Positions 595-15,826 of a stretch of 15,826 bases of DNA are shown one piece after another. Positions within the stretch are counted from its first letter, which is position 1. Every line of letters starts with the position of its first letter. Below the pieces are notes generated by a model. It ran no database searches, was not told the DNA's origin, and saw only the letters and a list, made by a program, of their open reading frames with translations. The stretch comes from Dysgonamonadaceae bacterium (GTDB lineage Bacteria; Bacteroidota; Bacteroidia; Bacteroidales; Azobacteroidaceae): assembly GCA_031255425.1 (NCBI GenBank), contig JAIRSN010000046.1, positions 1 to 15,826 of the forward strand, written 5' to 3'. A program made the translations under genes and the position numbers.

Positions 595-3072
595 TTATTC
601 CCAGGTCAGTTTTGGCGTCCGGCCCGAAGCAGGCCAGAAGGCACCGCCGAGATCATCTTCGACAAACTTCACTGATTGGCTGTACTCGAGCGTGTATTTG
701 GGGTCTTCTCCCATGGTGAGATTGGCTGCAAGAACAGCGTCTTTCACTGCCGTCTCTTGTGGGGTATTCCAGCCGATCGGCTGATTTTGCTTCGGCACTT
801 CATTGGCGGAAACCACACCCGGTTTCGAATAAACATTGGTAGCATTTACTTCCACTAAAGCGCTATTTGACTCGAGAATCCAACCAATAAGAGACCCTGT
901 CCTGTTGCTGTTATTGCTAATAGCAACAGTGCCGAAATTAAAAGAATTACTTATATCCAAGGTTTGCTTGTTACCAAGGGTATTGTTTACTGAATATATA
1001 AAACCGCCACCTGCATAGCTGGTACTTATATCTCCTGTGTTATAACAATTTTTTATGGTCAGGACTCCGCCACCATATAGACATGTTCCTATTAATCCTC
1101 CCGCACCATTGTCTGTGGTAGAAATATTTCCTGTATTATAACAATTTTCAATAACAGCGCCGTCATAAGCTATCCAAACCAATCCGCCGGCTGAAGAATG
1201 AATATTAATGGAAGACGAATTATAACAATTACGTAATTTCCCGTTATCGGACAATATGCATATTAATCCTCCAGCGCCAGAGGCGTCAGTCCCGAAGGTA
1301 CTGCCTCCTTTACGCCCCAGGTTTTTAATTTCGCCATACTTTAATTCCTTAAAAAGCGACACTTCCGATTTTCCGGCAGCATCAATATCCAAATTCTCAA
1401 TCACATGCCCTTTTCCATCAAATGTGCCATAGAACCCGCCTGTCAATGAATTCTTAACCGTTTCATCGCCGGCAAAATCCAGGTCGGTCGTCAATTCAAA
1501 GCATTTCTGATAAGTAGCATCCGTGGAACCTAATATCTCAATATCTACCGCTAATTTTTTGAATTGACGCACACTGCTGATTTTATAAGGGTTGGCTGCC
1601 GTTCCGTCGCCTCCCGCATAAGCCGGAGCCGGCTCCAAAGCAGCCCAATTGGTAGAAGCAGTCACATAATTATTTTCGGGAGCCGGTTCGCCTGTAACAG
1701 TCACCGTGATAGTGCCGGTAAACTTAATCTCGTTATCATCATTTGGCGTTGCCGTAGCCGTAACCGTAACGACACCCGGTGTTCCCGCCTGAAACCATCC
1801 GCCGGACGTAACCGTTGAACCTGTATTTGCAGCGTCAGTTATCTCGTATGTCAATGTACCCATATTGTAGGCATTTATAGAATTATCTTTTGCTCTCCAT
1901 GTAGTCGCTATTTTTTTTATTGAACCCGCAGTCACGGTAGCGTCGCTGTCCGATACTCCAGCGAGGTGATAAAGAATAGGGATATTGGCATTTTTAGGCC
2001 GGATTGTTGCCGTTACAGAAGTAGTCGAACCGTCTTCCAGAATAACCGCATACGTAATAGATTTATTTGCATCCGGTCCGGCAGTAATTGAACCCGTCTC
2101 ACTGATGGAGAGGATTCCTGCGGAAACGTCGGAGATAAATTTGATTTGACCGGTATAAGTGTCTTCAGGGCTATTCGCGTAGGAGCGCCCGTCGGCAAAA
2201 TCCAGTTCGATTTGATACGTGCCATCCTGCTGTATAACTACGGGATACTTCACGGAAAACTGCGTTTCTTGTTTGCGAAGCGGATAGTCCGGAACGACAA
2301 ACACATCATCGTCCGGCGTACCCGGAATGCCGTCTGCTCCGGTATAAACAAGGATGTCGCCTTCATCTTCTGTTATTTTTAAATAAATGCCCGGAATATC
2401 GCTTTCAACAGGCTTGTAGGTATTACCCTCATAAACCAGATTTCCGTCTTTATCGGTATAGGTGCCGTTTCCGTTATCGATCAATATCTCGCCATCCTCA
2501 TCTACCGTAAATGTAAAAGTGACCGGGTTGGAGGTGCAGGGGTTTGTTACCGTCACGGCGTAATTTCCGGCGCCGGTGGTGACATAACTGTCGCTTGCCG
2601 CATTTGTATTGACATTCAGCCAAACGATGGTCCCGTTCTTCGTCCAGATATAGTTGTACGTGGGATTTCCGGAGGTGACCGTGACGGTTATCTCTACGTT
2701 CTTGGTCGATTCGACTTTTTTGGATTCTGCCGTCGCCTTTACCGAAGCACAAATATTGACATCGTTCCGCATGCTTTCCCATTTAGACCCGTTCCAGGCA
2801 TAGAGTCCGGTGCCGTCGGGAAGATCGGCATTGATGTTGTAAACCACCATGCCCGTCGCACTTACGCCTTCGTCTGCCTGCAACTGAAGTGCTTCCGTAC
2901 TAAAAAGGTGAACCTTTGGAAACAATACGCCAAACTCGGATGTATTTCGCGACAAATCCAGTATTGCGCCCTTGTGCGGGTCGTCCACACTTCCGATGTT
3001 CACCTGTGCATTTACACTTGCTGCGCCCGTCATGACCAGCGCCAGCAGCCAAAAAAATGTTCTCAATCTCAT
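595..3072 (-). CDS. Secreted GLUG-repeat / Ig-like surface protein
   Basis: This 825-residue protein starts with a signal peptide (1-23, hydrophobic core FFWLLALVMTG, cleavage near VNA-Q). A conserved Bacteroidetes segment follows (24-100: VNIGSVDDPHKGAILDLS ... GVLFPKVHL ... LYAWNGSKWE). Residues about 108-190 look like an Ig-like domain, and 290-460 like further beta-sandwich repeats. From about 485 (GDGTAANPYKISSVRQFKKLA) it enters a GLUG-repeat region (545-745), with repeated GGL...I.NCYNTG.I motifs at 600-690. It ends FWPASGRTPKLTW, common in this family, and I see no type IX sorting domain. It is probably exported and exposed at the cell surface or in the periplasm; the ligand is unknown. 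The start fits the AT-rich ATTTATTAAGAT leader just before ATG. It has its own terminator at 529-570, and the structured element copy B lies upstream in the same orientation. Confidence 0.85.
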   Translation of the reverse strand: MRLRTFFWLLALVMTGAASVNAQVNIGSVDDPHKGAILDLSRNTSEFGVLFPKVHLFSTEALQLQADEGVSATGMVVYNINADLPDGTGLYAWNGSKWESMRNDVNICASVKATAESKKVESTKNVEITVTVTSGNPTYNYIWTKNGTIVWLNVNTNAASDSYVTTGAGNYAVTVTNPCTSNPVTFTFTVDEDGEILIDNGNGTYTDKDGNLVYEGNTYKPVESDIPGIYLKITEDEGDILVYTGADGIPGTPDDDVFVVPDYPLRKQETQFSVKYPVVIQQDGTYQIELDFADGRSYANSPEDTYTGQIKFISDVSAGILSISETGSITAGPDANKSITYAVILEDGSTTSVTATIRPKNANIPILYHLAGVSDSDATVTAGSIKKIATTWRAKDNSINAYNMGTLTYEITDAANTGSTVTSGGWFQAGTPGVVTVTATATPNDDNEIKFTGTITVTVTGEPAPENNYVTASTNWAALEPAPAYAGGDGTAANPYKISSVRQFKKLAVDIEILGSTDATYQKCFELTTDLDFAGDETVKNSLTGGFYGTFDGKGHVIENLDIDAAGKSEVSLFKELKYGEIKNLGRKGGSTFGTDASGAGGLICILSDNGKLRNCYNSSSINIHSSAGGLVWIAYDGAVIENCYNTGNISTTDNGAGGLIGTCLYGGGVLTIKNCYNTGDISTSYAGGGFIYSVNNTLGNKQTLDISNSFNFGTVAISNNSNRTGSLIGWILESNSALVEVNATNVYSKPGVVSANEVPKQNQPIGWNTPQETAVKDAVLAANLTMGEDPKYTLEYSQSVKFVEDDLGGAFWPASGRTPKLTWE

Positions 3073-3164: not shown

Positions 3165-3562
3165 GTTCCGGTAAAGGCAACTCCAACTTATATAAACATG
3201 AGAAAGAAATCTATTTACGTAACAAATGACAAGTTGCCTTTACCTTTGCCGGAAAGAATTATATGCGTTTTATATGTTTCATTGATGTATTTGGGCTTCC
3301 TGAGTCCCGAAGAGAAGCTATTTAAAAATCCGAAGCGCGGGACTTGTAACTTTATTTGTCTCTGAGGTTCTGAACTACCCGTACATACAAATAAGCTATT
3401 GCCCACGCTTTCACGCGAGCGTTCACTTACTTACTCTTGTATGTACAGAAATTGTTCAGATTTCAGAGACAAGAATAAAAGCTAACGCTTTCTTTTAATA
3501 ATATATAATGTCAAATGATTTCCTATGCTTTAATCAACTCTTTGATTAACTCTTTGATTGAA
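3165..3562 (-). ncRNA. Candidate structured RNA, copy B
   Basis: This element is homologous over its whole length to the window end (15405-15826, opposite strand). It can fold into a rod: outer stem 3356-3365 with 3463-3472 (10 bp), 3370-3375 with 3454-3459 (6 bp), 3381-3390 with 3437-3446 (10 bp, GTACATACAA/TTGTATGTAC), and inner ACGCT/AGCGT at 3405-3409/3418-3422. A second hairpin pairs TCCGGTAAAGGCAACT (from 3168) with AGTTGCCTTTACC...GGAA near 3231-3254. The stems differ from copy C but stay paired, which indicates selection on structure. The strand comes from a -7-like box at 3570-3578 and wobble pairs in copy C. It reads toward the GLUG gene at 3072, so it could be a separate RNA or a long leader. 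I recognise no known RNA family. Transcript ends are estimates. Confidence 0.6.
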
Positions 3563-3569
3563 AATCCGT

Positions 3570-3578
3570 GCAAAAATA
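3570..3578 (-). promoter_or_regulatory. TAnnTTTG-type -7 box for structured RNA copy B
   Basis: On the minus strand the sequence is TATTTTTGC, matching the Bacteroidetes -7 consensus TAnnTTTG. The position is conserved in copy C (TACTTTTGC). No TTTG lies at -33 in this copy, so it may be weaker than copy C's promoter. Confidence 0.5.
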
Positions 3579-3698
3579 GTGAAAATCTTTCAAAGTTGCA
3601 TCTTTTTAAGAATTTAATACGTAATTCAATTTGTTTTTTTGTTTTCGGGAGTTCCCACAGGCATGAATTCGGTTGTAAACATACTTTTGCCCCGGGGC
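3577..3698. repeat. Array-leader repeat, second copy (copy B)
   Basis: Direct repeat of 1-122 with four mismatches, ending in the palindrome TTTTGCCCCGGGGCA. Unlike at 1-470, the palindrome is not followed by tandem 42-bp units. It runs instead into a different hairpin series starting at 3699. This gives a single-unit counterpart to the expanded array 1. Confidence 0.9.
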
Positions 3699-3926
3699 AG
3701 AGGCGCAGCCTCTTTTGTATTTTTGGGAAGCAGTTCCCCCATGCGTAGCAGATACACCGTACACTTTAAAATTATAAAAGACACTGCGTGTCCGGCGCAG
3801 CCGCTAAAATATAAAAGAGGCTGCGCCTCCGTGTCCGGCGCCGGCGCCTTTGTATTTTTGGGAAGCAGTATCCCTATGCGTCGCAGATATACCGTACACT
3901 TTAAAATATAAAAGCGGCTGCGCCGC
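3699..3926. repeat. Hairpin cluster with two 67-bp direct repeats
   Basis: Two near-identical segments (3714-3780 and 3849-3914, starting TTTGTATTTTTGGGAAGCAG) are bracketed by short hairpins. Most of these keep a GCA or TGC loop while the arms change: AGAGGC/GCCTCT (3699-3713), GACAC/GTGTC (3780-3792), CGGC/GCCG (3793-3803), GAGGC/GCCTC (3817-3829) and GCGGC/GCCGC (3914-3926). GGCGCCGGCGCC at 3837-3848 is a perfect palindrome. Each direct repeat holds its own GGGA(A)...(T)TCCC hairpin. AAAATATAAAAG-type motifs precede three of the hairpins. The open frames here are a by-product of the repeats. Confidence 0.85.
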
Positions 3927-3937
3927 CGTGTCCTGCC

Positions 3938-9380: not shown

Positions 9381-9862
9381 CTTTCCATGTTACATGGAAA
9401 GTAAAAATCCGTTAATTTTTTGACATTGGGGTTTCCCCAAAAACGAAAATCTGTTAATTTATAGCTTGTGGGATTTCCCCAAAAACGAAAATCTGTTAAT
9501 TTATAGCTTGTGGGGTTTCCCCAAAAACGAAAATCCGTTAATTTTTTGACATTGGGGTTTCCCCAAAAACGAAAATCTGTTAATTTTTTACAATTGGGAT
9601 TACCCCACAACCGTAAAAATTTGCCCGGGGCGTTTGTGGGATTATCCCACAACCGTAAAAATTTGCCTGGGGCGTTTGTGGGATTACCCCACAACCGTAA
9701 AAATTTGCCCGGGGCGTTTGTGGGATTACCCCACAACCGTGAAAATTTGCCTGGGGCGTTTGTGGGGTCACCCCACAACCGTGAAAATTTGCCTGGGAGT
9801 CTTTCCGGGTGACCCGGAAACCGTGAAAATTTGCTTGGGACGTTTTCGGGTTTATCCCGAAA
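9381..9862. repeat. Array of twelve 42-bp hairpin units with changing arms (array 2)
   Basis: Hairpin centres lie at 9391, 9433, 9475, 9517, 9559, 9601, 9643, 9685, 9727, 9769, 9811 and 9853, exactly 42 bp apart. Loops are mostly TTA or TTT (TCA and TGA also occur). The arms differ while staying mostly complementary: CTTTCCATG/CATGGAAAG, TTGGGG/CCCCAA, TGGGG/CCCCA, TTGTGGGA/TCCCACAA, GTGGGG/CCCCAC, TTTCCGGG/CCCGGAAA and TTTCGGG/CCCGAAA. Units 3, 6, 8, 9 and 12 carry one mismatch. The linkers fall into two types, an AT-rich CGAAAATCYGTTAATTT type in the first five to six units and a CCGTAAAAATTTGCCYGGG type in the rest. Open frames across the array (14-residue periodic) are artefacts of the 42-bp period. 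Confidence 0.95.
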
Positions 9863-9869
9863 GGAAAAA

Positions 9870-9955
9870 AATAATAGTTTCATGATATTATCTAAACGTT
9901 CATTCTTCCGATTTATTATATTCTTCCTAATATAATATATGCATAGGACGATAAT
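9870..9955. other. AT-rich intergenic stretch, no feature seen
   Basis: This AT-rich stretch between array 2 and the GC-rich hairpin cluster contains short A/T runs such as TAATATAATATATG. I find no gene, RNA or clear promoter in it. Confidence 0.5.
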
Positions 9956-10053: not shown

Positions 10054-11541
10054 TCACTCCTTTATTTGCTGCATAATCGTGCGGACGCCCAACAACTCGC
10101 CCGAAGTGATAATCGCACCGATAATCACCCCAAGCGCCCCGTGCGAATTAGTGTTTTGCCCGGCCAAAAAGAGGTTCGGGACTTTGGTGCGTTGGGAAAC
10201 CACGTTCTGAACCGGTTCCGAACAGTCGCGGAGACGTCCGTACATCGACCCCTCTTCCGTTCCCGTGTAGTCTAAGTAAGTCAGCGGCGTAGAGGTGTAG
10301 TATTGCGCTATGCCGGAACGGGTTCCGGGGAGCTGCTGCTCCAATGCGTCCAGCAGGCGCTCGGCTTTCCGCCGTTTGAACTCCTCGTAATCCGCTCCCC
10401 GGTTGCCGGTGCGCGTGCCCTGCCAGCGGGCGACTTCTTCGAAATTCATATACGACAGAATCACTGCCGATTCCGCATATTCCGGCGCCGGAGAAGAACA
10501 ATGGTGCATGTAGAGGAATCCTTTGGGCCAATCCTGCTGCGTATAGTTCTCGCAACCGTACACGCGGTCACCGTTGTAATGGTAAAAGTTGGAATTGAGG
10601 TAACGCACCGCCGCCTTTTTGAACCGGATATAGACCGTGAAATTAGACGCCGTATGCTTCAACTTCAAAATACGGTCGCGGTACGCCTTGCGGATAAGCG
10701 GCGTCTCCAGCAACTCGATGGTGCGCAACGGATGGATGCCCGAAATGATGTAATCGCCGGCGATTTTCTCCTTGTTTTCCAGGGAAATACCGGTAGCTTT
10801 CTCCCGGTCGCAATGAATGGCGGCCACCGGCGAGGCGGCGTGGACGGAGCCGCCCATCGCGCGGATCGACCGCACCAGCGACTGCGCAATGACCGCGCTG
10901 CCCCCGACAATCCGGCAGGCGCTCTGGTTGTAAAAATGATTGATAAAGGCGTGGATGTAGAACGAGGTGCGCCCCTCCACGCCGGCGTAAAGCGGAACAT
11001 TCCCCGCCACAACCTGCCGCAACAAGGGATGCCCGATCGTGGAGGCAATCAATGCGTCGGCGCTCTTTTTGATGTAATCCGGGTTGAGCAGGTTCAGCGA
11101 AGGACTGTACTGAAGCGTGTACAAGGGAGAATGGAGGGCAACCTGCTCGATGGTCCGGTAATAGTTTTGCAGGTTGTTCCGTTCGCCGGGGAAATGTTGC
11201 GCCAGGGTTTCCACGAAATTTTCCTGCCCGTTGGCAAAGGCAAAGCGTTTGCCGGCAATGGAAATCACGTCGTAAGCCATCCTGTCCAAAGCGCACAGCT
11301 CCACATCCGGCAGCAGCGAAAGGTAACGGAAGAAACGGTGCAGGTTTTGCCCCGGATCCATGCCGCCGATGTAGTGCATCCCGGTTTCAAATTTCGCCCC
11401 GCCGCGCGTAAACGTCTGGAGGCAACCGCCCAGCCGGGCATTCTTTTCAAACAGGCTCACGCGGTAGCCGTTTTTCGCCAGGATATAACCGCAGGTCAGG
11501 CCGCCCAGACCGCTTCCGATGATGATTACATGTTTATCCAT
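10054..11541 (-). CDS. CrtI/retinol saturase-like FAD oxidoreductase
   Basis: This 495-residue NAD(P)/FAD-dependent oxidoreductase has the N-terminal dinucleotide-binding motif IIIGSGLGGL (6-15) followed by FEKNARLGGCLQTF. It has the C-terminal FAD motif LFLAGQNTNSHGALGVIIGA. The family includes phytoene desaturases, carotenoid isomerases and retinol 13,14-reductases, which act on polyene chains. It overlaps the upstream MMPL-acyltransferase gene by 8 bp, so the two are co-expressed. In Bacteroidetes this pair is typical of aryl-polyene/flexirubin-type lipid pathways, where the oxidoreductase is thought to act on the polyene. No ketosynthase, ACP or ammonia-lyase genes lie in the window, so the pathway is inferred. 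Length is normal. Confidence 0.85.
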   Translation of the reverse strand: MDKHVIIIGSGLGGLTCGYILAKNGYRVSLFEKNARLGGCLQTFTRGGAKFETGMHYIGGMDPGQNLHRFFRYLSLLPDVELCALDRMAYDVISIAGKRFAFANGQENFVETLAQHFPGERNNLQNYYRTIEQVALHSPLYTLQYSPSLNLLNPDYIKKSADALIASTIGHPLLRQVVAGNVPLYAGVEGRTSFYIHAFINHFYNQSACRIVGGSAVIAQSLVRSIRAMGGSVHAASPVAAIHCDREKATGISLENKEKIAGDYIISGIHPLRTIELLETPLIRKAYRDRILKLKHTASNFTVYIRFKKAAVRYLNSNFYHYNGDRVYGCENYTQQDWPKGFLYMHHCSSPAPEYAESAVILSYMNFEEVARWQGTRTGNRGADYEEFKRRKAERLLDALEQQLPGTRSGIAQYYTSTPLTYLDYTGTEEGSMYGRLRDCSEPVQNVVSQRTKVPNLFLAGQNTNSHGALGVIIGAIITSGELLGVRTIMQQIKE

Positions 11542-14500
11542 TCTTACTGAAATGTATTATTTGATCTTCCTTCAATACAAAAACCGCGTCGAAAGCGGAT
11601 GCCGCCGGCACTGCCGTCCTTTTGCACACAAGCAGGTTAGCGGGTTTCCCGGCGCAATGCTCCAGCAGCGCCGCTTTGTCCCCGTCGTCCTCGGTGGCGA
11701 CGACCTGAACCGCCTTGTGAACCAGGGCGAAAAGGAAGGCAAACACGCCGTAGCCGCTGTTTTCCACCCAAACCCTGCCGCCGCCTTCGTAGGTATCGAT
11801 CCAGGGGGAATAGTCCGCGTTCTGTTTCAGGATCGCACGGACATTCCGCTCAATGGCAGCGCCTTTGTACAAATAGTTGTGCAAAACAAACCGGCTGAAA
11901 TAGGCTGCCGTTTCCACCTGCCGGCAAAGGGCGGCATACGTCCGGCGGTAATACAGCCGGACCTCCCTTGTCCGGGCGAGGCAATCCGTCCCGTAGCGGG
12001 TGTCGCCCGGCGGAATGCGCGGATGCACCACTACGCGCAGGCTTCCTTCCCGCAACATCAAATCGTTTTTGGGCAATACATCGCTCGCTCCGTGAATAAA
12101 GACCGGCAAGAGGTCTACGTTCAGTTTTTCCGCCAGATGGAACGCGCCCTGGTGAAAGCGCCGGATCGAACCGTCCGCCGAGCGGGTGCCTTCCGGAAAG
12201 ACGACAACCGAATAGCCGTTCCGCACCCGGTCGGAGAGCGCCTTCAGGCTGTTTTCGATGCCGTTGGAAACCGGATAGAAGTCGGCATACTTAATCAGCC
12301 TGCCGTAAAAAGGATTGTTCCACACCCAGTCGTTGGTCAGGATAATCAGGCGGGGGGTCAGCCGCAGGATGCACATCAAATCCAGGTGCGACTGATGGTT
12401 GCTGATAATCACCGCCGGCTTTTCAAAGGTCTCGCCGGACCGGTTTTCGTAATTGAATTGCACGCCCGGAATCCGTTTAGTGACAAAGCGCGACACCCGG
12501 CACAACAGGGCATGGTAACGCCGCTTGTTCTCCTCCGTCTTCCGTCCGAATCCCAGCAGGAAAAAGCCGGCGAGGGTTATCAGCCCGCTTCCCGCCAGAA
12601 AAGCCAGGAAGGAATAGACGGAAAAAAGGAGGCGCTTGAAGGTGATGGGCACCGGGCGCAAGCCTTTTTTGGTTCCGGTCAGCCAGCGGAAAACGAGCGG
12701 CGGAATCAGGTACGCCATCAGGACAACCGAAAACATGCCGACGACCGTCACCTCCGCCAGCGACCGCAAAGCCGGGTGCCGGGCGAAAATCAGGGTGCCG
12801 ATGCCGGTAAACATGATCAGGGCGGAGAGCAGGATGCTGTTTTTGTAGGACGCAAGCATCCGGCGGCGGTAGGCGTACTCGTGCATCAGCCCTTCGGTGA
12901 TGAAAATCGTGTAGTCGTCGCCCTGCCCGAAGATGAATGTTGCCAGAATAATGTTGACAATATTGAAGCGAATATCGCCCAGTTGCATCAATCCGAGTAT
13001 CCATATCCAGCCCACGGCAAGGGGTAAAAACGACAGGAGGCTCAGCTCGAGCCGCCCGAAGGAAAACGTCAGGAAAAGGAACACAATCAGCCCGCAGAGG
13101 AAAAGCACGTAGTTGAAGTCGCCGGAAAGGGCGTCTACCATCCGCTGCCCGGTGTCGCGGGCATCGAAGAAGAAGGAGTCGCCCGCCTTTCCGTCCGCCA
13201 GGGCGCTTTCCAGCCGGGCGGTTTTTCCGTTTTCGCAATACAGCAGGTCGACGAGCATCGTTTTGCCATCCCTTTCTATTATATAGTTAGCGGCAAGCAG
13301 GGAGGTCAACGGGGCGAAATACGACTCGTCCTGCGGCGTGAACTCCGTTTCGAGCAGGCGGAAAAACGAATCGAACGCGCCGGGTTTGAACCCTTCGTGC
13401 CGGGCGGCGTTTTCGGTTTCCCGGATAATCTGCTCCCGGTGCGTTTCCCGGAAGCGGTTCCATCGGTCCAGGCGTTGCTGCTGTTCCGCCTTCGAAGCGA
13501 GAAACGAGCCAATGCCGGCGATGCTCTCAATCGTTCCCTCCTGCCGCAGGGAATGGAGCAGGGCGGTGTTGCGCTCGTAGACGGTCAAGGCGCTGTCGAG
13601 GGATTGTCCTTCGGAAATAAAATAGACCACGTCGCGCTCTTTTTTCTCCAGCGATTGCCGGAAATAGTGCATGTCTTCCCGCTGCTGCGCGGTCATGTAG
13701 TTGATGTTGTTCATATCCGCATCGAAAGCGGTGAAGCGGCTCAGGTAGAGGAATAAAAGCGTCAGCAGAAGCACAGGAATCACCACCGCCTTTTTCTTTT
13801 CGGGCGAAAAAGCCGCCTGCCGTTCGAAAAGCAGGCGCTCGTGTGTCGCCTCGCCGGGACGGATTTTCACCAGGTGCGGCAGGAAAATCAACACAAAGAG
13901 GATGGTCCCGACCAGGAGCAGGGAACCGAAAAGCCCCAGGTCGCGCATGGCGTCCGAACGGAGGAACACCAAGCTGAGAAAGGCGCTCACCGTCGTAATA
14001 TTTCCCGTCAGCAAGGGCGGAACGACCTCTTTCAACGCCTGTCTTCCATTGGGTTGGCGCCGGAGATGGTCGATAAGATGCAGCGGATAATTGATGGCAA
14101 TCCCGACAAATACAGACCCGATGCCGATGGCAATAATGGAGATGCTCCCCTTGAAAAGGGCAAGCAAAGCCAGCGCAAACAGCCAGCCAAAGAGGACGGA
14201 AAGGAATATCAGGGCGATGTTGCGGGCGTTGCGGAAAAAGTAAATCAGCAGGACGAAGATCAGGACGACCGACAGCGCAATGGCTAACAGGCTGTCTTTC
14301 TTTATCTGTCCGGCATTGGTGACGGCAATCGCCGGCGCCCCGAAACAACTCACCCGGACTTCGGGGAAATGCTGTTCCGTTTCCCGCATGACCGGATCGA
14401 CCAAGGCGAGGATGTCGCCGTTTTTCGCCGTCTCGCTGACGCCGTAAGGGGATGTCAGGAAGACCATTCCCCTTTTCCCGTCGGGCGAAAAGAGGTAGCC

Positions 14501-15088
14501 GTCGTTCAGGTTCGCCGCTTCGCCTGCCTGGAAATCTTTCATCCGCAACAGCAAGTGCGAAAAGAGATTCAGCGGGTCGGACTGGATATGCGACTTCAGC
14601 AGGCTCCCCGAAGGCAGCATCAGGAGGCGTTTGTTTTCCCTGATTTGCGACGCAATCCGCGGCACGGACAGGAGGGTATCGAGGCGGGCATAGTCTTCTT
14701 CCGTCAGGAAATACGGCGCGTTTTGCCGGATAAACGACATTTGTTCGAAAATCCGCGATTCGTCTACCTGCGCGATGATTTCCGGGATCCGGTGCAAGCT
14801 GTCGCGTTCGGTCAGCAAGCGGACGAAAAAATCAACAGACTCGATAATCGTCCCCGGATCCTCCCCGGAAAAGCTGACGATCAAACGGTTCGAGTTCCCG
14901 ATATGCTGATACACCGCATGGATACGCTCGTTCGCCTTCCTGCCGGGAAGAAATTCGGCAATATCCTCCCGGTAGTCCAACCGGAAACAGGCGAACGCCA
15001 TCCCGATCATCAGCAATGCCGCCCATACAAAGAGGTACCGCCGCCGCGAAAGAAAATAAGAATAGACGGAAAGAAATATTTTTGTCAT
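11534..15088 (-). CDS. MMPL/RND exporter fused to PlsC acyltransferase and a methyltransferase-like tail
   Basis: 1184 residues. TM1 is at about 17-37, a periplasmic loop follows, and a TM block spans 260-408. TM7 is near 433-451, a second loop follows, and a TM block spans 658-805 with FGQGDDYTIF (D724, D725, Y726; the Asp-Tyr pair is typical of MmpL proton relays). Another hydrophobic stretch at 820-848 leads into an LPLAT/PlsC domain (about 880-1025). That domain has the catalytic HX4D (NHQSHLD, H898/D903) and FPEGTRS (964-970). The last ~90 residues (from RVWVENSGYGVFAFLFALVH near 1105) resemble a SAM methyltransferase whose DxGxGxG motif has decayed. Likely role: acylation and export of a polyene lipid to the outer membrane. 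First gene of the pair; ATG at 15088 follows a -7 box. Confidence 0.9.
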   Translation of the reverse strand: MTKIFLSVYSYFLSRRRYLFVWAALLMIGMAFACFRLDYREDIAEFLPGRKANERIHAVYQHIGNSNRLIVSFSGEDPGTIIESVDFFVRLLTERDSLHRIPEIIAQVDESRIFEQMSFIRQNAPYFLTEEDYARLDTLLSVPRIASQIRENKRLLMLPSGSLLKSHIQSDPLNLFSHLLLRMKDFQAGEAANLNDGYLFSPDGKRGMVFLTSPYGVSETAKNGDILALVDPVMRETEQHFPEVRVSCFGAPAIAVTNAGQIKKDSLLAIALSVVLIFVLLIYFFRNARNIALIFLSVLFGWLFALALLALFKGSISIIAIGIGSVFVGIAINYPLHLIDHLRRQPNGRQALKEVVPPLLTGNITTVSAFLSLVFLRSDAMRDLGLFGSLLLVGTILFVLIFLPHLVKIRPGEATHERLLFERQAAFSPEKKKAVVIPVLLLTLLFLYLSRFTAFDADMNNINYMTAQQREDMHYFRQSLEKKERDVVYFISEGQSLDSALTVYERNTALLHSLRQEGTIESIAGIGSFLASKAEQQQRLDRWNRFRETHREQIIRETENAARHEGFKPGAFDSFFRLLETEFTPQDESYFAPLTSLLAANYIIERDGKTMLVDLLYCENGKTARLESALADGKAGDSFFFDARDTGQRMVDALSGDFNYVLFLCGLIVFLFLTFSFGRLELSLLSFLPLAVGWIWILGLMQLGDIRFNIVNIILATFIFGQGDDYTIFITEGLMHEYAYRRRMLASYKNSILLSALIMFTGIGTLIFARHPALRSLAEVTVVGMFSVVLMAYLIPPLVFRWLTGTKKGLRPVPITFKRLLFSVYSFLAFLAGSGLITLAGFFLLGFGRKTEENKRRYHALLCRVSRFVTKRIPGVQFNYENRSGETFEKPAVIISNHQSHLDLMCILRLTPRLIILTNDWVWNNPFYGRLIKYADFYPVSNGIENSLKALSDRVRNGYSVVVFPEGTRSADGSIRRFHQGAFHLAEKLNVDLLPVFIHGASDVLPKNDLMLREGSLRVVVHPRIPPGDTRYGTDCLARTREVRLYYRRTYAALCRQVETAAYFSRFVLHNYLYKGAAIERNVRAILKQNADYSPWIDTYEGGGRVWVENSGYGVFAFLFALVHKAVQVVATEDDGDKAALLEHCAGKPANLLVCKRTAVPAASAFDAVFVLKEDQIIHFSKNG

Positions 15089-15400: not shown

Positions 15401-15430
15401 TTTGCTTTCAAAGATTTTCACTACTTTTGC
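15401..15430 (+). promoter_or_regulatory. Promoter of structured RNA copy C
   Basis: TTTG (15401-15404), a 17-nt spacer and TACTTTTGC (15422-15430) match the Bacteroidetes -33/-7 consensus on the + strand. The -7 box and its surroundings (CTTTCAAAGATTTTCACTA) are conserved in copies A and B. Confidence 0.65.
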
Positions 15431-15437
15431 GCGGTTT

Positions 15438-15826
15438 CTTTTAACAAAAAGCTGATTAAGGCGTGGAAACCAATTAAAATACATAATTAATTAAAGAAAG
15501 CGTTAGCTTTTATTCTTGCTTTTAGAAACTTCAACAATTTCAACAGTGACAAGGATAAGTAAGTAAACGCTCGCGTAGGAAGCGTGGGCAACTTATTTGT
15601 TACTGTGGGTAGTTGAAGACCTCTAAAAGCGAATAAAGTTACAAGTCCCCGCTTCATTATTTTTTAAATCGCTTCTCTTTCGGGACTCAGGAAGCCCAAA
15701 CACAGCAATGAAACATATACACAGAATATAATTCTTTCCGGCAAAGGTAAAGGCAACTTGTTATTCGTTACGCAAACAGATTTCTTTCTCATGTTTATAG
15801 TTAGTTGGAGTTGCTTTTACCGGAAC
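15438..15826 (+). ncRNA. Candidate structured RNA, copy C (cut by window end)
   Basis: Counterpart of copy B in the opposite orientation. Stems: GCTTTTAGA (15518-15526) with TCTAAAAGC (15622-15630), CTTCAAC (15529-15535) with GTTGAAG (15612-15618), CAGTGACAA (15544-15552) with TTGTTACTG (15597-15605, one G-U), and ACGCT/AGCGT at 15567-15571/15581-15585. Stem sequences differ from copy B yet pair. Bulged outer pairing (GTTAGCTTTTATTC with GAATAAAGTTAC) is shared by both. A 3' hairpin pairs TTCCGG...TAAAGGCAACT (15738 on) with AGTTGCTTTTACCGGAA near the window end, again with a G-U pair on this strand. The apparent small frame MRKKS...LSPE on the opposite strand is broken by an extra base. The transcript may continue past the window. 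Confidence 0.6.

Follow-up and report, generated by a model that had tools for sequence, protein, structure and literature searches.

Two repeats in the window, which is an entire 15,826-base contig (C60, 1–15826) from a 2.0-Mb draft genome that is 77% complete, belong to a large family of folded leader RNAs in the Bacteroidota that is apparently unnamed. By comparing copies we established the helices, the strand, the position ahead of a gene and the complementarities among four short strands (a–d). The best explanation of the whole, and in our judgement a probable one, is a leader RNA with an attenuation switch.

An earlier note on this DNA had described copies B (3165–3595) and C (15405–15826), which lie in opposite orientations in the window, as homologous repeats with rewritten stem arms. 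Every stem that it named is found in the sequence. Read on the RNA strand, the outer stem is TTGTCTCTGA/TCAGAGACAA in B and GCTTTTAGA/TCTAAAAGC in C, a loop helix is CTGAAC/GTTCAG in B and CTTCAAC/GTTGAAG in C, and the inner stem is GTACATACAA/TTGTATGTAC in B and CAGTGACAA/TTGTTACTG in C. Both cores outdid shuffled sequence in folding by a wide margin, with z-values of −8.49 (B) and −5.28 (C). The observation was right and understated: the association with a downstream gene, the kissing loops and the alternative pairing are absent from it.

Features are listed in Table 1. In the RNA sense copy B runs from a TAnnTTTG box through about 80 nt to a core of about 160 nt, a 3′ pseudoknot, a further hairpin and an exported-protein gene. 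The parts of copy C come in the same order, and the contig end precedes any gene. The 431-nt repeat is composed of the promoter-like box, the core, the pseudoknot and a hairpin of the window's genus, and its phylum-wide part is the core only. Copy C has CCCCGC where copy B has CCCGCGC, leaving a bulge in its b:c helix.

Table 1. Parts of copies A, B and C in the window
Feature	Position	Strand	Basis
Copy B, TAnnTTTG promoter-like (−7) box TATTTTTG	3571..3578	−	coordinates; box statistics over 167 loci
Copy B, conserved RNA core: 5′ hairpin, P1, P2/P5 kissing hairpins (favoured reading), P3-P4-P4b, strand c	3331..3492	−	R1 163.2 bits; covariation
Copy B, 5′ hairpin AAAGC-GTTA-GCTTT	3478..3491	−	local-hairpin test
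Copy B, P1b 5′ arm TTGTCTCTGA, partner 3356–3365	3463..3472	−	covariation
Copy B, P2 hairpin, loop CTGAAC, predicted to pair with P5 loop	3448..3464	−	covariation
Copy B, P3 5′ arm GTACATACAA, partner 3381–3390	3437..3446	−	covariation
Copy B, strand a GCTCGCG, partner strand b	3414..3420	−	covariation
Copy B, strand b GCGTGGGC, complementary to a and to c	3401..3408	−	covariation, held-out copies
Copy B, P5 hairpin, loop GTTCAG	3366..3379	−	covariation
Copy B, P1b 3′ arm TCAGAGACAA	3356..3365	−	covariation
Copy B, strand c AGTCCCGCGC, complementary to b; its 5′ part to S2 GGGACT	3335..3344	−	b:c and c:d tests
Copy B, S2 hairpin, GGGACT (strand d) in loop, 3′ pseudoknot with c	3295..3318	−	c:d test
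Copy B, further 3′ hairpin of the window's genus, arms 3231–3253 and 3167–3188	3167..3253	−	
Gene that follows B, for an exported protein of 825 aa with GLUG motif; its start codon lies 258 nt past core	595..3072	−	
Copy C, TAnnTTTG box TACTTTTG	15422..15429	+	box search
Copy C, conserved RNA core	15496..15656	+	R1 154.4 bits
Copy C, S2 hairpin, GGGACT loop	15671..15695	+	c:d test
Copy A, promoter end only; RNA runs past contig start	1..20	−	1–123 repeats 3577–3699 at 97%

A covariance model (R1) was built from 52 hand-picked cores among 121 non-redundant ones. It matched 33 places in the window's own genome at E ≤0.01, B and C among them, where a DNA search had given 59 pieces. Scans of relatives and of a phylum sample scored a maximum of 7 or 30 candidates per genome under strict filters, so their counts are lower bounds. 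R1 matched at least 55 of 97 relatives, with from none to at least 30 copies per genome (at least 30 in six genomes of the window's genus), and at least 53 of 395 genomes of the phylum sample. A broader model, R2, matched at least 58 of these 395, and at least 13 of the matched genomes belong to other classes than the window's. Five named genomes have 3–8 R2 matches apiece, a few being weak or reverse-strand echoes. Among the matches listed by an exact motif scan, loci fall in records named Alistipes, Rikenella, Prevotella, Bacteroides, Odoribacter, Dysgonomonas, Pedobacter, Sunxiuqinia and others. The window's relatives appear to be the termite-type Bacteroidales that stand in GenBank as Dysgonamonadaceae and Candidatus Symbiothrix; a core from the window's genus (L031, genome G014) is identical to that of L083, from a record named Dysgonamonadaceae.

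Covariation was scored in an alignment (A3) of 88 hand-picked loci, against shuffled and slid-partner controls, and in held-out copies against swaps between copies. Two spurious reverse-strand rows of A3 were kept for the whole-structure, b:c and L2:L5 scores and for building R2, and were dropped for the column-pair ranking and the G-U count. Eight rows (L022, L059, L069, L077, L081, L104, L112 and L118) were dropped for an absent or too short core, L069 being by eye a chance motif match; L060 and L078 were dropped for want of a 3′ anchor. A held-out set comprised 33 copies from loci outside R2 training with at most 81.5% identity to any training row, although about nine of them are 82–93% alike among themselves. 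Three reverse-strand rows of A5 were removed from this set, and L251, a duplicate piece and one of 20 fetched stretches, was left out.

The compensatory change seen between two copies survives in this larger alignment: 91.3% of cells are paired over the whole structure, against 73.4% when shuffled and at most 53.6% with slid partners, and 841 cells are doubly changed against 242. Together with the held-out copies this supports the earlier proposal of selection on folding. The top 15 column pairs (corrected G-test, at least 4 columns apart, 89 diverse copies) all lie in predicted helices, namely P1b, P3, L2:L5 and P2. The first unpredicted pair, at rank 16, may extend P1b; ranks 23, 28, 31 and others within the top 60 are also unpredicted. 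Only four unpaired columns are more than 93% conserved. The pattern resembles that of a riboswitch, whose aptamer-like fold is conserved and whose expression platform varies: the core covaries and the 3′ part differs between lineages. Whether RNA or DNA was folding had been left open. Since G-U cells in the helices far outnumber A-C cells (435 against 53, strand b being counted with both partners), selection acts on RNA of this sense, and the strand is fixed; copy B is read from the minus strand.

CTGAAC/GTTCAG had been described as the next stem. Its pairing stands, but the two arms are better explained as the loops of two small hairpins, P2 and P5 (stems GAAA/TTTC and GGT/ACC), that pair with each other. 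This L2:L5 helix scores 0.656 against 0.219 when shuffled and at most 0.078 when slid, and because it is absent from R1 and R2 the alignment was not fitted to it. At least six pairs form in all 33 held-out copies; exchanging loops among copies brings the share down to 15%. Relative to P1 and P3 the L2:L5 helix is nested, and only hairpins P2 and P5 make it a pseudoknot. The covariation of these hairpins themselves is modest (P2: 13 doubly changed but 22 unpaired cells at the outer pair, and 7 at the next; P5: 8 at one pair), so that the kissing contact is favoured, not proven.

A long-range closing helix, AAAAGCG/CGCTTTT, proposed by RNAalifold and included in R1, is poorly kept (for example 68/89 at one pair) and was omitted from R2. 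Its 5′ strand instead forms a local hairpin in 82/89 and 27/33 copies, against about one third of shuffles.

Strands a, b and c have the sequences CUCACGC, GCGUGGG and CCCACGC. In the main part of P4b, a:b is paired in 99.5% of cells. For b:c the figure is 97.9% against 95.4% in the control, with 19 doubly changed cells against 4.3; its best column pair ranks only 42nd because the strands vary little within the class. The b:c score is at least 5.5 in 31 of the 33 held-out copies, compared with 50% of swapped combinations, and 5.0 in the other two, both outside the class. Outside the class all three strands are rewritten jointly, as in GCGTCC/GGACGC/GCGTCC then a T-run, or in L236 with a CACTCCG, b CGGGGTGTTCC and c GGAACACCC then a T-run; inside it, L250 sets GGTGTGT against ACACACC. 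Some 30 nt downstream of c, the loop of a hairpin with a changing stem can carry a GGGACT-type stretch (d) that complements the 5′ part of c. Of the 167 loci 157 were scored for this pseudoknot; it was found in 71, against 3.9% of shuffles, and not found in 86. Being complementary to both b and d, c has two possible partners, as b has in a and c. A T-run of at least 5 follows c in 58/74 loci of other lineages and 24/39 of the window's type (rough grouping; 113 loci scored), and a run of 6 is rare in the latter (1/39). With fewer T-runs there, the case for termination is weakest where the window lies.

The 167 distinct loci come mostly from the exact motif scan, as matches listed, and are biased in their 5′ sequence. 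In 97 of them core and next gene share a strand, in 2 they are opposed and 68 are unscorable; the upstream gene is on the same strand in 70 and opposite in 80. At 33 further loci the next gene gave 28, 2 and 3 unscorable. A TAnnTTTG −7 box stands within 120 nt upstream of the core in 138/167 loci (11.9% of shuffles), its distance clustering around 30, 65 and 83 nt, and a promoter box lies between core and gene in 3/97 only. The next ORF starts more than 200 nt from the core in many loci. Between box and core, start-stop mini-ORFs (ATG TAG, ATG GCA TAA) were seen in L061, L070, L117, L121 and others; at 35/138, against 13% in shuffles, the signal was too weak to make them part of the mechanism.

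By a crude rule 76 of the 97 downstream proteins have an exported-type N-terminus, compared with 151/492 other ORFs at these loci, a contrast somewhat inflated by control ORFs that are mechanical calls, spurious ones included. Without 18 proteins that match one family motif, the share is 58/79. Pfam was run on 73 of the 97, the 24 omitted being mostly termite paralogues: 11/73 are TonB-plug proteins, and the others include LRR, OmpA, beta-barrel, HlyD, Fib_succ_major and BACON. In the window's own genome the gene after the copy belongs, in 9 of 10 scorable cases, to one exported family with a similar N-terminus, the 825-aa protein of copy B included (eight assigned by motif, L021 by eye). No single metabolic theme among the target genes points to a ligand. 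Some copies (L050, L064 and L098) stand before HlyD-type or ABC exporter genes or, in L064, before a small HTH-like gene and then a GG-leader-like peptide noted by eye, suggesting bacteriocin-type export loci.

The nearly fixed place and strand before a gene, the promoter-like box of its own and the competing strands before the start codon are the anatomy of a regulatory leader. Very probably, then, judging from these comparisons, the element is a cis-acting 5′-leader RNA. It would be transcribed from its own promoter and open the mRNA of the gene that follows, which in most cases codes for an exported or outer-membrane protein. Its core would be a junction of P1, P2, P3-P4-P4b and P5 held by pairing of the P2 and P5 loops. 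Strand b could pair upstream with a, forming hairpin P4b, or downstream with c, behind which a U-run is common; at many loci d, in the downstream hairpin loop, could be an alternative partner for the 5′ part of c. Competition of a:b, with or without c:d, against b:c would follow the logic of a transcription attenuator. Given a cis-acting leader, we lean towards attenuation by b:c with the U-run. We infer that leader and gene form one transcription unit, that b:c plus the U-run acts as a terminator-like OFF state with a:b giving read-through, and that a signal of some nature, read by the kissing-loop junction, picks the state.

A general architecture of attenuators and riboswitches is the choice between pairings 1:2 plus 3:4 and pairing 2:3. 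The element is like them in being a 5′ leader on the strand of its gene, with a structured, sensor-like domain and predicted mutually exclusive pairings that end in c and often a U-run. It differs in that b:c is a long-range loop-tail pairing, which would span more than 60 nt as a pseudoknot and so depart from the usual terminator hairpin; most of its targets encode exported proteins and do not form one pathway, and it comes with no known ligand or leader peptide. The cobalamin riboswitch (RF00174) also has a four-way junction with a kissing-loop contact and also stands before TonB-dependent transporter genes, and the element, on the favoured reading, shares this architecture and context. Identity with RF00174 was rejected, since neither the window nor the element in 35 related loci matched Rfam and we recognised no common conserved sequence. 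A bolder possibility, one we hold to be somewhat doubtful, is a new phylum-wide riboswitch class answering to a global signal, c-di-GMP excepted (for example a different nucleotide messenger or an envelope precursor), that would set the Bacteroidota surface proteome and be massively expanded in termite-gut symbionts. Sensing of c-di-GMP is very unlikely: GGDEF was found in 1 of the 97 relatives, many of them incomplete drafts, and the RNA in 55 of the same 97.

The leader might instead be bound by a regulatory protein or by the transcription machinery, in processive antitermination of which EAR, put and LoaP-type elements are examples, and not by a small molecule. Many targets that share one theme, export, and no metabolic one would suit this, as would the specialised NusG paralogues that Bacteroidota use. 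A protein site is usually a conserved loop, however, and here just those four unpaired columns are so strongly conserved; nor was a linked regulator gene noticed at the loci in an unsystematic look. We regard this reading as unlikely, though to be taken seriously. Quite improbable is a family of free-standing, trans-acting sRNAs ending at c and the U-run, with the neighbouring genes expressed separately. The promoter box, the 3′ T-run and the many paralogues in one genome are what such a family would show, but the orientation of the next gene (97 to 2 and 28 to 2) beside a randomly oriented upstream gene argues against it, as do the scarcity of promoter boxes between core and gene (3/97) and the free rewriting of stems and loops, in which a constant seed is not evident. 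The model here is FopS, described within the Bacteroidaceae and one phage, with a single-stranded 5′ stretch and one terminator hairpin, which represses its targets in trans (PMC11697453, text seen in part). Like FopS as portrayed there, the element is a multicopy Bacteroidota RNA family tied to surface-protein control; identity was rejected because the core, unlike that single-stranded 5′ end, is a multi-helix junction. Rfp18 of Flavobacterium psychrophilum, in the portion of PMC9723704 consulted, is an independent sRNA conserved in its genus, likewise structured and affecting metalloprotease expression, and is set apart here by its description, not by sequence.

Two further readings treat the repeat as DNA. 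It could be a shared 5′ end for exchanging surface genes in antigenic variation, with the RNA fold secondary; the single exported family with a shared N-terminus behind 9 of 10 scorable own-genome copies and the assembly breaks at copies fit this picture. Recombination would homogenise the stems, yet these are the most divergent part, and other genomes have fewer copies before unrelated targets, which makes it very improbable. A mobile repeat (MITE or REP-like) with folding ends was already disfavoured and is extremely improbable. For it speak 33 copies in a single draft genome, the many contigs that end near copies and a viral-collection contig that has recombinase-like genes and one exact match to the motif. 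Against it, and against a transposon-end reading in general, stand the nearly fixed strand and promoter relative to the next gene and conservation across the phylum, with 3–8 matches apiece in five named genomes, a count that takes in weak and reverse-strand echoes; 25 of the 57 inverted pairs were listed, and among these the whole unit has no inverted ends. Spread by phages or plasmids was rejected: blastn with copy B, which would miss distant relatives, found no match among 72,556 plasmid and 50,697 phage records, leaving the exact motif on that one viral-collection contig. There (L213:12314–13096) the motif precedes a gene for RteC (PF09357, E 6.3e-43); ORFs that look by eye like tyrosine recombinases are close by, and integrative elements may use the RNA too.

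That no known RNA family was recognised at the outset agrees with Rfam 15, which had no match at gathering score in the window. With relaxed filters no family reached gathering score for the element, and across the 35 related loci it was without a match under relaxed and gathering settings; hits elsewhere in those loci were an XIST repeat (below threshold), RNase P and tRNA. A relaxed hit of the element to the plant mir-5014 (E 0.0021, 27.3 bits against a gathering score of 101, plus strand) was rejected as a chance match to a long hairpin, and four other relaxed hits had E of 1.5–4.2. No tRNA or tmRNA was found. In the literature searched, the text of PMC8632094 included, the element is undescribed, although a candidate catalogue may list it in a supplement without a name. 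Two catalogues were consulted in their article text: PMC2864571, with 104 motifs that are comparative candidates, some from Bacteroidetes, and a table in which a few (GUCCY-hairpin, Bacteroides-2) are without an Rfam number, and PMC8040213, with 3161 human-microbiome candidates found by comparison. The element is unmatched in either article text, and might stand as an unnamed fragment in the supplementary alignments.

If genes for TonB-dependent transporters, lipoproteins, LRR, OmpA and adhesin-like proteins have leaders of one architecture, their regulation could be approached through a single RNA class. Bacteroidota are dominant in animal guts and carry large sets of surface transporters and adhesins, and to our knowledge few RNA leaders have been described for their surface genes. 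The proposed switch of a:b versus b:c is defined and testable, and dozens of rewritten yet paired copies within one genome make a natural laboratory for the evolution of RNA helices.

Some features of the genome and window lie beside the RNA itself. A common sequence breaks three own-genome cores (L026, L028 and L029, on contigs C110, C249 and C48) at one place in strand c, where CCCGCG or CCCACG ends; it seems to be an element with site-specific insertion into this RNA. Its readable end resembles, by eye, the C-terminus of an IS110-type transposase; Pfam and NCBIfam gave no support for that identity. In the window, 11537–15088 encodes a 1184-aa protein in which an MMPL-type exporter is joined to an acyltransferase domain, and the adjoining 10057–11541 a flavoprotein whose resemblance to the phytoene desaturase family stays below cut-offs; the pair suggests a locus for a lipid or a pigment. 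Tandem repeats of 42 nt whose centres are self-complementary (for example GCCCCGGGGC and GTGGGATTACCCCAC) form two arrays, at 80–530 and 9404–9888. Upstream of copy B, 3700–3936 holds a dispersed short repeat, GGCGCAGCCTCTTTTGTATTTT, with inverted copies, and similar pieces precede other copies.
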